Shown here: piece by piece, positions 2,035 through 30,728 of the stretch
Layout: each line of letters starts with the position of its first letter
Numbering within the stretch: the first letter of the stretch is position 1
Assembly (NCBI RefSeq): GCF_000214415.1
Contig: NC_015562.1
Location: 930,001-994,000 of the forward strand
DNA length: 64,000 bases
Direction: 5' to 3'
Origin: Methanotorris igneus Kol 5
GTDB lineage: Archaea > AGJL01 > Methanococci > Methanococcales > Methanococcaceae
The notes under the pieces: model-generated
The model's database searches: none
Told to the model about the DNA's origin: nothing
Seen by the model: the letters and a program-made list of their open reading frames with translations, nothing else
Made by a program: the position numbers and the translations under genes

Positions 2035-4014
2035 ATGAGTAGCCCCAGAGTTGGGGTATTCGTCTGCTACTGTGGTGCCAACATCAATGGTGTGGTAGAT
2101 TGTGAGGCGGTAAAAGATTTTGCCGCCAAACTTGATGGGGTAGTTGTTGCAAAGACCTATCCATTTATGTGTGCAGATCCAGGTCAAAACCTCATTAAAG
2201 AGGCTATAAAAGAGTACAACTTAGATAGAGTCGTAGTTGCAGCATGTACTCCAAAAATCCACGAGCCAACATTTAGAACTTGTCTCGCAGAAGCAGGCTT
2301 GTCTCCATACTACTTAGAGTTTGTAAATATTAGAGAGCACGATTCATTTGTGCACATGAATGATAGAGAAGCAGCAACCAAAAAAGCTATGGAATTGGTT
2401 GCTGCTGGTGTAGAAAGAGCAAAAAGATTAGAAGACGTTCCACAAAAAACAGTTGAAGTTGATAAGAGCTGTTTGATTATAGGAGCTGGTATTGCTGGAA
2501 TTCAGGCAGCTCTTGACTTAGGAGACCAAGGATACAAGGTATATCTTGTAGAGAAGGAGCCATCAATTGGAGGTAGAATGGCTCAACTTGCAAAGACATT
2601 CCCAACCGACGATTGTGCTCTGTGAATTTTGGCCCCTAAGATGGTAACTGTTGCGAACCACCCTAATGTTGAACTCATAACATACGCTGAAGTTAAAGAC
2701 ATCCAAGGATACATCGGTAACTTTGAAGTTACCATTGAGAAAAAACCAAGATACGTTGACGAAAATGTATGTACCGGATGTGGAGCATGTGCCGCGGTCT
2801 GTCCAATTGAAGTACCTAACGAATTCGACTTAGGATTAGGTACAAGAAAAGCCATATACGTGCCATTCCCACAAGCAGTACCATTAGTTTATACAATAGA
2901 CAAAGAGCACTGTATTGACTGTGGTTTGTGTGAAAAAGCTTGTGGTCCAGGAGCAATAAGATACGACCAAAAACCAGAAGAAATCAAACTCAAAGTTGGT
3001 ACAATTATCAATGCAATTGGATACGATGAGTTTGATGCAACACTTAAAGAAGAATACGGATATGGTGTCTACGACAACGTCATAACAACACTCGAATTAG
3101 AAAGAATGATTAACCCAGCAGGACCAACAGGAGGACACGAAATAAGACCAAGTGATGGTAAACATCCACACAGAACAGTATTCATTCAGTGTGTAGGTTC
3201 AAGAGACGCAAAAATAGGAAACCACTACTGTTCAAGAATCTGCTGTATGTTCGCATTGAAGAATGCTCAATTAATGAAACAACACGACCCAAACGCAGAA
3301 GTTTACATCTGTTACATGGACATCAGATCATTCGGTAAAGGATACGAAGAATACTACAGAAGAGCACAGGAACAATTCGGTGTCAAGTTCATAAGAGGAA
3401 GACCAGCATGTATCATAGAAGATCCAAAAACTAAGAACTTGATTGTAAGAGTTGAAGACACATTATTGGGAGAAATCCTCGAAATTGAAGCTGATTTAGT
3501 TGTATTATCATGTGGATTAGTTGCAAGAAAAGACACAAAGAAACTCGCAAAGATGCTTGGAATCGACGTTGGTCCAGATGGATTCTACAAAGAATTACAC
3601 CCAAAACTTGCACCAGTTAACACAAAAGTTGACGGGGTAGCAATTGCAGGGGTTGCTCAAGGACCAAAAGACATTCCAGACACAGTAGCTCAGGCAAAAG
3701 GTGCAGCAAGTGCAGTAGCAATCCCAATGGCACAGGGACAATTTAAGATTGAAATGATAAGGGCAACAGTAAACGAAGAAGTCTGTGGTGGATGTAAAGT
3801 TTGTGCTCCAATGTGTCCATACAACGCTATAACCTACGTTGAGAAAGATGGGCACTTAGTTGCACAAGTTAACGACATCGCATGTAAGGGATGCGGTGCT
3901 TGTGCAGGAGCATGTCCAAGTGGAGCAATGCAGTTAAGATACTACAGAGACGAACAAATTATTGCTGCTATTGATGGATTGCTCGAGACACACAAAATGC
4001 TTGAGAAACAGTAA
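2035..4014 (+). CDS. hdrA: CoB-CoM heterodisulfide reductase subunit A, selenoprotein (in-frame UGA = Sec197)
   Basis: The gene is read through TGA at 2623-2625 as selenocysteine. The flanking protein FPTDDCAL-U-ILAPKMV is the HdrA context, and both flanking parts are uninterrupted HdrA. The full product is 659 residues. An FAD-binding GAGIAGIQAALDLG motif is near residue 153, and there are four [4Fe-4S] motifs (CTGCGACAAVCP, CIDCGLCEKACG, CGGCKVCAPMCP, CKGCGACAGACP). HdrA is the flavin bifurcation centre. It accepts electrons from the Vhu hydrogenase and splits them between CoM-S-S-CoB (through HdrBC) and ferredoxin. The start follows GGAGGTGAATTC. A SECIS lies in the 3' UTR (4193-4223), and the UTR also contains antisense matches to this gene. 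It heads the hdrA-vhu cluster. Confidence 0.97.
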
Positions 4015-4025
4015 ATAATTTAATT

Positions 4026-4174
4026 CTGCTTGTGGGAATGGCGCGGCACATGCTCCACTCGATACCGAGCTAACTAAACATCTAAATTCGCATAAATTAA
4101 ATCTAAACAATAAATCAAACAATATCAAATTTCGATTCAAATAAATCCGTATGAGTTCAACATTAGGGTGGTTC
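4026..4174 (+). repeat. hdrA 3' UTR segments antisense to the hdrA coding region past the Sec codon
   Basis: Three segments of the UTR are exact reverse complements of hdrA coding sequence. Bases 4150-4174 match 2655-2679 (25 nt), 4042-4058 match 2780-2796 (17 nt), and 4026-4042 match 2862-2878 (17 nt). Their order is antisense-colinear, so one mRNA could pair with itself. The 25-nt target starts 29 nt after the UGA, and its complement ends 18 nt before the 9-bp SECIS stem. The identity was checked base by base. Function as a tether is inferred. Confidence 0.85.
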
Positions 4175-4192
4175 AAGGTATAAACAGATGAG

Positions 4193-4223
4193 GCGCCATC
4201 CGAAGGCTCTGCCAGGATGGCGC
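4193..4223 (+). promoter_or_regulatory. SECIS element of hdrA
   Basis: The hairpin has a 9-bp stem GCGCCATCC (4193-4201) with GGATGGCGC (4215-4223). The archaeal SECIS asymmetric bulge GAA (4202-4204) lies opposite A4214, capped by GGC-TCT-GCC. The fold matches the methanococcal consensus for directing Sec insertion at an upstream UGA. Confidence 0.93.
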
Positions 4224-4315
4224 TGATGGGGGCTATGTGGCCCTTGGGGGATTTACCTTTACCTTTATTTCATTAAGCTTCATTAGATCTTATAAAAAGA
4301 AAAAAAGGGATTATT

Positions 4316-4723
4316 ATGAGTGAACCAATAATTGTAGCATTCGTTTGCTATCAATGAGGATACGGTGCAGCAGATTTAGCTGGAACAAGTAGAATGCAAT
4401 ACCCTGCCAGCGTCAGGCCTATAAGAATACCATGCACTGGTAAATTCGACATTACTTACGCCCTTAGGGCGTTCCAAAAAGGCGCTGACGCTGTCTTTGT
4501 TGCAGGGTGAAAACCACACGAGTGTGCATTCGAGACTGGAAACTTTAGGGCCGAAGAGAGGGTTAGGTTCACCAAAAAATTATTAGATGAATTAGGAATT
4601 GGTGGAGAAAGAATAGAAATGTACTTCATGACTGCAGCAGAAGCTGATAAATTCGTTGCTGCTGTAAATGAAATGACAGAAAGAGTTAAAAAATTAGGAC
4701 CTAACCCTCTCAAGGCCCAATAA
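4316..4723 (+). CDS. vhuD: F420-non-reducing hydrogenase delta subunit, selenoprotein with two Sec residues
   Basis: The 135-residue protein is read through two TGA codons, 4355-4357 (Sec14, context VCYQ-U-GYG) and 4508-4510 (Sec65, context VFVAG-U-KPHEC). Both sites are cysteines in the non-selenium MvhD/VhcD family, and the sequence between and after them is uninterrupted family sequence. VhuD carries a [2Fe-2S] cluster and passes electrons from the VhuAGU hydrogenase to HdrA. The start ATG follows AAAGGGATTATT. A SECIS lies 18 nt after the stop. It sits between hdrA and vhuG in the expected complex order. Confidence 0.95.
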
Positions 4724-7132: not shown

Positions 7133-7273
7133 ATGTGTGTGGTAGATGAGAAAAAATTAAACTTAATAGAGATGGTTTTAAGAGCATACGACCCTTGATA
7201 CTCATGCGCAGCTCATATAATAGTTAAGGATGAAAAAGGAAACGTAATTTTAGAGATCGTTAAAGAAGAATAA
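7133..7273 (+). CDS. vhuU: Hydrogenase C-terminal peptide with nickel-ligating selenocysteine
   Basis: This 46-codon gene is easy to miss because TGA 7196-7198 encodes Sec22. The context DP-U-YSCAAHII is the large-subunit C-terminal motif (Sec22, Cys25 and His28), which completes the NiFeSe active site with VhuA. The tail after the His is normally removed on nickel insertion in this family. The chosen ATG at 7133 follows TTGGGGTG, and the codons from there are in frame with the motif. A SECIS begins two nucleotides after the TAA. Confidence 0.94.
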
Positions 7274-8632: not shown

Positions 8633-8940
8633 AGGATGTGGGGAGTTCCGTTCTCCCCGAACGCTCCCTTGATGAAGTCCTCTGGACGGAACGGGAGAAC
8701 TCCTCAAGGTGGTTGAATATAGTTAAAAATTATAGTTGTGTGCGCTAAGAGTTTAGGCGAAAACTCCTGCGGAGTTTTCGCTACTCGAACCTTCGGTTCG
8801 ATGAACATAACTTCAATAAATTTATGGGGCATTAAACATTTAATTTCAAAATTTAAAGGAGGAAAAATGGCCACTTAAAAAATTAATGGCAAAACCCAAA
8901 GAGTTTTGCCGTATTATACTTAAGCCACCTTGAGGAGAGA
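8633..8940. repeat. GC-rich inverted-repeat region with a TIR-family insertion between vhuB and fwuB
   Basis: A GC-rich, strongly self-complementary stretch (8637-8712; GTTCCGT with ACGGAAC, GGAGTTC with GAACTCC) is followed by CTCCTCAAGGTGG (8700-8712). That sequence is exactly inverted at 8925-8937. Between them lies an element end TATAGTTGTGTGCG (8731-8744), the hairpins GCGAAAACTCC-tgc-GGAGTTTTCGC and CGAACCttcGGTTCG, and the GGCAAAACCC hairpin at 8889-8910. A truncated copy of the dispersed TIR family inside an older palindrome is inferred. No gene is seen. Confidence 0.55.
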
Positions 8941-9102: not shown

Positions 9103-10410
9103 ATGGTAGAAGTCGTTAAGAATGTCGTGTGTCCATTTTGTGGGACACTCTGTGATGACTTAGAAATCCTCGTTGAAGATGGACACATTGTAGGAACAAG
9201 ACATGCATGCAGAATTGGAAACGCAAAATTTATGCACTTTGAAGGTGCAGTGAGATACACAGAGCCATTAATGAGAGAAAATAAAAAAGATGAATTCAAA
9301 AAAGTTGACTACGAAACTGCAATTGAAGAAACCGCAAGGTTGTTGGTTGAAGCAAAATTGCCTTTAATTTATGGATTCTCTGCTACAGAATGTCATGCAC
9401 ACCAATATGCGGTAAAATTGGCTGAGAAAGTTAGTGCAATTATTGACAACACTGCGAGTGTTTGACACGGGCCTTCAATTCTTGGATTGCAGGACGTAGG
9501 ATACCCGGTTTGTACCTGTGGAGAAGTCAAAAACAGAGCTGATGTAATTATCTACTGGGCTTCAAACCCAATGCACGCACACCCAAGACATATGAGTAGA
9601 TACGGAGTATTCCCAAGAGGGTTTTTCAGAGAGAGAGGAAGAAAAGACAGAACATTAATTGTCGTTGACCCAAGAAAGACAGATACTGCAAAATTAGCAG
9701 ATATTCACTTGCAAGTTGAACAGCATAAGGACTACGAGTTAATCAGTGCAATGAGGGCAGCATTGAAAGGGTTTGAGTTGCAAGTTGATGAAGTCGCAGG
9801 AATTCCAGTAGAGTTGATTTATGAGGCAGTTGATATTTGTAAGAATGCTCAATTTGGACAGCTTTTCTTTGGTATGGGAGTCACAATGACAAAAGGAAAA
9901 CACAGAAATATCGACAATGCTATCCAATTGATTATTGACCTAAATGCCTACACAAAATTCGGATTAATGCCAATGAGAGGGCACTACAACGTAAATGGGT
10001 TCAACCAAGTATTAACTTGGGTAACAGGTTATCCATTTGGTGTTGACTTCTCAAGAGGTTACCCAAGATTCAACCCAGGAGAAACATGTGCAAACGATGT
10101 CTTGCAAAGAGGAGAAACTGACATGATGCTCAACATCGCTTCAGACCCAGGAGCACACTTCCCACAAAAGGCAGTCCAACACATGGCAAGAATCCCATTG
10201 GTCTGTATTGACCCACACGAAACACCAACAACACATTTGGCAAACATCATCATACCTCCAGCAATTGCTGGAGTTGAAGTTGAAGGAACTGCCTATAGAA
10301 TGGACGGAGTCCCAATTGAGTTAAAAAAAGTTGTTGAACCACCAGAAGGTCTCTTACCAGACAGAGAAATCTTAAAAATGTTAATTAAGAAGGTTGACGA
10401 AATGAAATAA
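9103..10410 (+). CDS. fwuB: Tungsten-type formylmethanofuran dehydrogenase subunit B, selenoprotein (Sec121)
   Basis: This is the catalytic subunit of the enzyme that reduces CO2 to formylmethanofuran, the first step of methanogenesis. It binds the tungstopterin and a [4Fe-4S] cluster (CPFCGTLC near residues 10-17). TGA at 9463-9465 is read as Sec121 in the context NTASV-U-HGPSILG, where Cys or Sec ligates W/Mo in the family. The reading frame is continuous family sequence on both sides, giving 435 residues. The ATG at 9103 is favoured because GTGAT ends four bases upstream, though ATG 9097 is possible. No other fwd/fwu genes are adjacent. A SECIS and an antisense segment lie in the 3' UTR. 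Confidence 0.95.
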
Positions 10411-10461
10411 ATCAAACAACCTCTATATTGGTTTATTACAAATTCCCTAAAACATGCCCCC

Positions 10462-10486
10462 ACAAACCGGGTATCCTACGTCCTGC
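10462..10486 (+). repeat. fwuB 3' UTR segment antisense to the coding region past the Sec codon
   Basis: These 25 nt are the exact reverse complement of 9489-9513, which starts 23 nt after the Sec UGA. The segment ends 18 nt before the SECIS stem. The length and spacing are the same as in hdrA. Confidence 0.9.
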
Positions 10487-10504
10487 CCCTAACACGCCTG
10501 TGGC

Positions 10505-10537
10505 TTTGAGGGGGAACCCGTTATGGGACCCCTCAAA
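10505..10537 (+). promoter_or_regulatory. SECIS element of fwuB
   Basis: The 9-bp stem TTTGAGGGG (10505-10513) pairs with CCCCTCAAA (10529-10537). The GAA bulge (10514-10516) lies opposite A10528, with CCC/GGG and a GTTAT loop. Confidence 0.93.
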
Positions 10538-28600: not shown

Positions 28601-28667
28601 ATAAAAAATAAATAAAAAAGCAAAAACAAAAGATTAAATAAAAATAATTAAAACTGTGGAGGGTTTT

Positions 28668-28817
28668 TATAGTTGTGTGCGAATTTTTTTAAACTTATTA
28701 TAAAAACTTATAAAATTTTAAGTTGTCATTTTTCCTCCTTTAAATTTTGAAATTGAGTATTTAATGCCTTATAAATTTTATTAAAGTTATGTTCAGTTTC
28801 TAACGCACACAACTATA
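28668..28817. mobile_element. MITE-like element, about 150 bp
   Basis: The terminal repeats TATAGTTGTGTGCG (28668-28681) and CGCACACAACTATA (28804-28817) are perfectly inverted. It is non-coding. The interior CCTCCTTTAAATTTTGAAAT is shared (inverted) with 8837-8866. Its right end lies two bases from the HesB-gene SECIS. Confidence 0.85.
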
Positions 28818-28818
28818 A

Positions 28819-30358: not shown

Positions 30359-30728
30359 TTTATAGTCGTTGCGTTATAATAGCCACAGCCATCAATGAAA
30401 TGAAGGCATAAATTATGGTTTGATTTAAATTTTATACTTATTTATTATTCTTTCAAAGATTTTACTATGCCCAATTATATGAAAAGAATTACACAAACAG
30501 TTACATGCCAACTTTAAATATCTCTTCCGTTTTATGTTTTTTTGCTATTATAGTCGTGTGCGTTAGAAATTGGAAATATGCTATTGACAAAGTCATAAAG
30601 ATTTATGCCTTATTTCAATTTTTTGGCAAAACCTTTTAGGTTTTGCCGTATATTTTAAGGAAGAATAAAGATTATTTAAAAATTCATTAATGCGTAAATA
30701 CGTTTAAAAAATTTCGCACACGACTATA
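30359..30728. mobile_element. Two adjacent MITE-like elements between psmA and SBDS
   Basis: The second copy (30549-30728, 180 bp) has perfect inverted ends TATAGTCGTGTGCG and CGCACACGACTATA, plus an internal GGCAAAACC-GGTTTTGCC hairpin (about 30623-30645). The first (from 30361, TATAGTCGTTGCGTTATAATAGC) is degenerate and shares its interior CAATGAAAT...ATAAATTAT with the copy near 58200. They occupy most of the 520-nt psmA-SBDS gap. Confidence 0.75.

Follow-up and report, generated by a model that had tools for sequence, protein, structure and literature searches.

Selenocysteine redefinition elements, RNA structures located just past the UGA, occur locally in eukaryotic selenoproteins and may aid recoding. 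These elements are local hairpins, which distinguishes them from the putative long-range, SECIS-carrying duplexes that we describe here. The bacterial SECIS (fdhF type) is a recoding hairpin just 3' of the UGA, the position that a docked archaeal SECIS would take. It differs in that it forms an unbroken part of the coding sequence and is recognised by the C-terminal domain of SelB, whereas the archaeal SECIS is of the GAA_A type and has another binder (PMC9499178, PMC2933860). How the archaeal SECIS communicates with the ribosome at a distant UGA is stated to be unknown (PMC9499178). Tombusvirus readthrough elements show a distant RNA element pairing beside a recoded stop codon to stimulate readthrough, much as is proposed here (PMC3234231); being viral, with a eukaryotic host and with neither a SECIS nor selenocysteine, they offer an analogy only.

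The closest system is the fdhA1 5'-UTR SECIS from the Rother group in 2025, whose flanks can pair with the ORF just beyond its Sec UGA (PMC11881835). These flanks are reported to be conserved in Methanococcales and longer in thermophiles, and the SECIS is calculated to lie 43 nt past the UGA; the main text describes complementary flanks for fdhA1 only (PMC11881835). The idea of a complement-flanked SECIS is not wholly new, and this 5'-UTR case is the sole published one that we found. In the openly available literature that we searched, including a 2026 review and older reviews, no mention of 3'-UTR clasps was found, and priority is uncertain.

We analyzed a window of 64,000 nt (the whole stretch of DNA, contig NC_015562.1, positions 930,001 to 994,000) from the 1,854,197-base genome of Methanotorris igneus Kol 5. 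The fwuB locus has the following features.

9103..10410, forward strand: fwuB ORF, Sec-containing formylmethanofuran dehydrogenase subunit B, read through the UGA
9463..9465, forward strand: fwuB Sec UGA codon, TGA followed by HGP, conserved in Sec relatives
9466..9472, forward strand: accessory target CACGGGC, directly after the UGA, pairing with 10496-10502 in the 70 °C fold
9489..9513, forward strand: putative docking target in the ORF, exact complement of 10462-10486
10462..10486, forward strand: putative docking complement in the 3' UTR, from complementarity, z 16.3, covariation and the minimum free energy (MFE) fold
10496..10502, forward strand: accessory complement GCCTGTG, adjoining the SECIS, pairing with 9466-9472
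10505..10537, forward strand: fwuB SECIS, GAA_A type, with the GAA/A motif as defined in PMC11881835

The fwuB product has 435 aa with a single in-frame TGA, U121. The original prediction of an exact 25-nt reverse complement near this UGA is confirmed: 23 nt separate the UGA from the target, and 18 nt lie between the end of the complement and the SECIS. The SECIS (TTTGAGGGGGAACCCGTTATGGGACCCCTCAAA) shows the two stems around a GAA_A bulge and the G-C rich upper stem of an archaeal GAA_A element. None of 400 dinucleotide shuffles reaches the native helix (z 16.3). In MFE folds of the whole mRNA, which are predictions that ignore ribosomes, 25/25 helix pairs are present at 37, 70 and 85 °C. The accessory helix adjoining the UGA was rejected as a general feature, as its 7-8 pairs occur only in this genome, the congener L039 and L041.

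Upstream of fwuB, the window contains three further Sec genes.

2623..2625, forward strand: hdrA Sec UGA (ORF 2035-4014)
2655..2679, forward strand: hdrA putative docking target 1, exact complement of 4150-4174, 29 nt past the UGA, z 17.7
2780..2796, forward strand: hdrA putative docking target 2, +157 of the UGA, complement 4042-4058
2862..2878, forward strand: hdrA putative docking target 3, +239 of the UGA, complement 4026-4042
4026..4042, forward strand: hdrA putative docking complement 3, inverted repeat with 2862-2878, in the MFE fold
4042..4058, forward strand: hdrA putative docking complement 2, inverted repeat with 2780-2796, in the MFE fold
4150..4174, forward strand: hdrA putative docking complement 1, 3' UTR, 25 nt, 17 nt before the SECIS
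4192..4224, forward strand: hdrA SECIS, within the Rfam flpD match 4184-4229
4508..4510, forward strand: vhuD second Sec UGA (first UGA at 4355-4357)
4556..4570, forward strand: vhuD putative docking target, 45 nt past the second UGA, 15-nt helix, z 7.3
4697..4711, forward strand: vhuD putative docking complement, within vhuD's own last codons
4742..4774, forward strand: vhuD SECIS
7196..7198, forward strand: vhuU Sec UGA, a natural control with its SECIS ~80 nt away and no docking complement

hdrA shares the architecture of fwuB, as had been predicted, and again 0/400 dinucleotide shuffles match its helix. A spacer of 18 nt had been expected in both genes; this stands for fwuB, but the hdrA spacer is 17 nt by the SECIS stem placement used here. 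The outer hdrA arms have targets progressively further 3' in the gene and complements progressively further 5' in the UTR, and the arm 3 helix extends to 20 nt once one wobble pair is counted. Nearly all pairs of the three arms are present in the MFE structures from 37 to 85 °C. Like the fdhA1 type, these genes have a SECIS flanked by a complement of the ORF downstream of the Sec UGA (PMC11881835). Unlike fdhA1, as its main text describes it, where the SECIS lies in the 5' UTR and is clamped on both sides, fwuB and hdrA have a 3'-UTR SECIS with one-sided pairing (PMC11881835). The clasps found here, in fwuB, hdrA, a fmdB-like gene, selD and vhuD, also differ from fdhA1 in that they may have several arms or sit in the last ORF codons.

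The Rfam flpD RNA (RF01737) match at window positions 4184-4229 covers the hdrA SECIS, and the RF01737 family is therefore at least partly a SECIS. A repeated intergenic unit, TTATAGTTGTGTGCG, some copies of which form inverted pairs, is present at window positions 8729-8743, 28667-28681, 28804-28818 and 30549-30569.

Among inverted repeats spanning up to 4 kb, none in the window is longer than the fwuB and hdrA 25-mers. The best helix score between an ORF and its own 3' flank is 64 for fwuB and 60 for hdrA, versus at most 34 (median 24.5) in 46 other window genes, the background for such scores being the window genes and the relatives' loci only. Eight Cys paralogues have no complement in the shuffle test (z -0.8 to 2.0). 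Exact 25-mers seen in a single genome do resemble an inverted duplication, and a functionless origin by duplication or chance was considered. We find this almost inconceivable, as the pairing occurs in five genera of two families at a fixed position, shows compensatory changes, and persists in selD where the partner has moved into codons. It is ruled out by the position and the covariation, and by the comparison with shuffles, with Cys paralogues and with genes from the whole window. The enrichment test proposed with the original prediction gave the same result in 36 Methanococcales genomes, in which such complements are hugely overrepresented, at one fixed place, in Sec genes whose SECIS is distant but not in Cys paralogues.

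We compared the hdrA-vhuDGAUB-fwuB region from 30 places and found fwuB homologues in 34/36 Methanococcales genomes, those in the alignment being 59-90% identical to the window fwuB. We scanned the entire ORF of 27 fwuB genes that have a SECIS, and in every one the best target begins at +24 to +34 from the U of the UGA. The shuffle z is 4.6-19 in 25 of the 27 and 2.4-2.8 in two g2 genomes. The three fwuB genes without a SECIS have no complement either, and no 5'-UTR SECIS was found when we looked for one in the three that lack a 3' SECIS. The complement varies between lineages in step with the target codons: 8/21 pairs have changed on both sides (covariation 0.217 against 0.107 in shuffled alignments; 0/500 shuffles reach this score). 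Sliding the partner by 1-3 bases lowers the paired cells from 87% to 27-43%. Each gene's best helix was used to assemble the fused alignments, which biases them to pairing; the controls with shuffled and slid partners are intended to take this into account. Synonymous variation is reduced in the fwuB target, and likewise in the selD target.

The fwuB pairing is conserved in Methanococcales and longer in thermophiles, as for the fdhA1 type, with growth temperature taken from the genus. The run length is 9-11 nt in g2, presumably the mesophilic genus Methanococcus, versus 14-26 nt in the thermophilic groups, but 11 nt in L055. Pairing in g2 is short overall (9-13 nt) and absent from selD, and the Methanopyri-like Sec fwuB, L231, shows no significant pairing; because of these cases, the clasp is not universally required. 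In the original prediction, the equal duplex lengths (25/25) and spacers (18/18) were taken as meaningful. This does not hold, because the lengths vary among relatives (9-35 nt, with a spacer of mostly 10-23 nt), and the equality is a coincidence of one genome. The constant feature is the geometry: the target lies just 3' of the UGA, and the end of the duplex that carries the SECIS is the UGA-proximal one.

Three Methanocaldococcaceae genomes (L066, L067 and L068) have a fwuB with a Sec UGA, but no SECIS could be recognised in the 300 nt flanking it on each side. In L042, Cys replaces Sec in fwuB while a SECIS-like stem is still present in the 3' UTR, probably because Sec was lost recently.

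Formylmethanofuran dehydrogenase is also encoded by a second Sec gene, fmdB-like, which is 43% identical and has its UGA at genome position 329933. It has a 17-nt pairing (genome 329965-329981 with 330934-330950), and two relatives have one of 19 nt; the shuffle z is 10-14. The fmdB-like Sec copies L070, L071, L073 and L075 have an in-frame UGA, and no SECIS is seen in their 250-nt 3' flank.

Helix scores of at least 30 are seen for hdrA in eleven genomes. In most of them the pairing covers 14-35 nt and starts 28-53 nt from the UGA, and z is 8-23 in the ten that went through the same shuffle test. The pairing is weak or absent in L057 and L062, and synonymous constraint in the hdrA target is not significant (67/453 windows are as low). 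Arm 2, which also occurs in hdrA of L039, L058, L060, L061 and L063-L065, lies near +153 in eight g1/g5 genomes and mostly fits its own species or close kin best. In hdrA of L062, L066 and L067, only a short AUGA...GA hairpin stands in place of the GAA_A SECIS.

The selD pairing (16-27 nt; shuffle z 10-16) starts 9-13 nt from the U of the UGA. Its partner lies in the 3' UTR in g1 and g5, and in this genome it runs through the stop codon. Both sides have changed in 7/21 pairs (covariation 0.269 versus 0.106 in shuffled alignments; 0/500 shuffles reach this score). In g3/g4, most of whose genomes have the selD SECIS close to the stop codon, the same target pairs with codons 37-53 nt before the stop and not with the UTR (z 3.9-6.9; 2.4 in L080). 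This partner was detected by scanning 120 nt of the ORF tail and was missed with 30 nt. No pairing was found 3' of the selD SECIS, where we also looked. In L105 selD, the tail changes from GTT to ATT together with a change of the target from AACACC to AATACC. The exchange, a conservative Val to Ile replacement close to the C-terminus of SelD, preserves the pairing with the UGA-proximal target, and it is possible, judging from the codons, that RNA structure steers the protein sequence here.

The vhuD helix, 15-16 nt long with z ~7-9, has as its partner the last codons of vhuD itself; it is present in both g1 genomes (the genus of the window) and in nearly all g5 (family f2) loci. In fdhA of this genome, we recovered the 5'-UTR arrangement: the 3' flank pairs with +28..+43 and the 5' flank with +45..+53, and the SECIS is held between two helices.

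Altogether, six genes with a distant SECIS (fwuB, hdrA, fmdB-like, selD, vhuD and fdhA) carry the clasp, whereas the two genes with a near SECIS (vhuU and fruA) do not. The median linear distance from UGA to SECIS is ~1,035 nt in fwuB, 1,525 nt in hdrA, 1,013 nt in fmdB-like, 1,028 nt in selD and 234 nt in vhuD. Docking would reduce these medians to 35, 53, 45, 45 and 78 nt, respectively, within an overall range of 20-102 nt. The undocked medians of vhuU and fruA are 79 and 80 nt, and these genes have almost no room for a complement before the SECIS. The SECIS always lies 3' of the complement and the strands are antiparallel; it therefore emerges at the UGA-proximal end of the duplex.

On this basis, we propose that a cis-acting long-range RNA clasp probably docks the SECIS before the ribosome halted at the UGA. 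A stretch upstream of the SECIS, in the 3' UTR or the last ORF codons, would pair with coding sequence ~10-70 nt past the UGA, moving the SECIS from hundreds to 1,500 nt away to ~20-100 nt. The docked SECIS would face a ribosome with the UGA in its A site, in a bacterial-like local position with a spacing near that of vhuU and fruA, and the outer hdrA arms may pre-align the two strands. The sequences show complementary stretches in a defined and conserved place that have undergone compensatory change, and a division of the genes according to whether the SECIS is distant or near. Compensatory change, the mark of a long-range recoding stimulator, is found across species in fwuB and selD. Enrichment, the fixed position beside the UGA and the joint change of target and complement thus support the original view of a selected RNA device over an accident of duplication. 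The duplex would form in cells and raise UGA recoding by proximity, with a need that may rise with growth temperature.

The duplex might instead stimulate ribosome pausing or stop readthrough past the UGA, giving Sec-tRNA time against release, with SECIS proximity incidental; eukaryotic redefinition elements offer a local precedent. We regard this as unlikely. The helices do begin close to where the ribosome enters, at 7-50 nt beyond the UGA, and tombusvirus stop readthrough is driven by long-range pairing with a 3' element (PMC3234231). Yet vhuU and fruA need recoding and have no helix; it is just the genes with a nearby SECIS that lack one. The constant UGA-proximal place of the SECIS and the two helices holding the fdhA SECIS also speak against it.

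Several observations weigh on the docking model itself. Every translating ribosome has to melt the duplex, and docking alone is insufficient to explain hdrA arms 2 and 3, 157-255 nt past the UGA. In an M. maripaludis Bla reporter, a SECIS 520-679 nt from the UGA is functional without a clasp (PMC9622424). In the reporter results presented in PMC11881835, ORF-complementary flanks on a 5' SECIS leave Bla activity unchanged while mRNA is ~three-fold lower; in favour of the model, activity per mRNA is ~two-fold higher with fdhA1-type flanks. These published flank tests used a mesophile, M. maripaludis, and short flanks, and clasps in its presumed genus are also weak.

The lower bla mRNA would also fit a switch in mRNA stability or selenium sensing, in which ribosomes stop at the UGA under low selenium and the bare ORF pairs with the 3' end, deciding between decay and storage. 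The targets always lie downstream of the UGA, in the stretch left bare after termination, and the extra hdrA arms could be accommodated as well. We consider this slightly less probable than pausing, as it leaves unexplained the link to SECIS spacing, the absence from vhuU and fruA, and the 5'-UTR form. Another idea is that the hdrA-vhuDGAUB-fwuB Sec genes may share a transcript, in which the clasp would match every UGA with the proper SECIS. Some 8.5 kb of the window do contain four SECIS and five UGA, and in hdrA and selD a complement is mostly best matched to the gene of the same species; however, selD, fdhA and fmdB-like carry clasps and lie elsewhere in the genome, making such addressing very improbable.

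Under the docking model, a covarying duplex in six gene families, bringing the SECIS from up to 1.5 kb to 20-100 nt, would give thermophiles a concrete and testable answer to how a distant SECIS acts. The clasp can be used to find and verify Sec genes and their SECIS, and it constitutes an RNA constraint within coding sequence, including the C-terminal codons of SelD and VhuD. More tentatively, and with somewhat less than even confidence, we suggest that in hyperthermophilic archaea an RNA-RNA clasp may deliver the SECIS to the ribosome, so that a eukaryote-like 3'-UTR element comes to act locally, as in bacteria. If true, this would help explain why an archaeal SBP2-like adaptor has not been found. 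Selenoprotein mRNAs would then be governed by the rule that no Sec UGA occurs without a SECIS within ~100 nt, by sequence or by clasp, and this rule would shape codon choice and even C-terminal residues.
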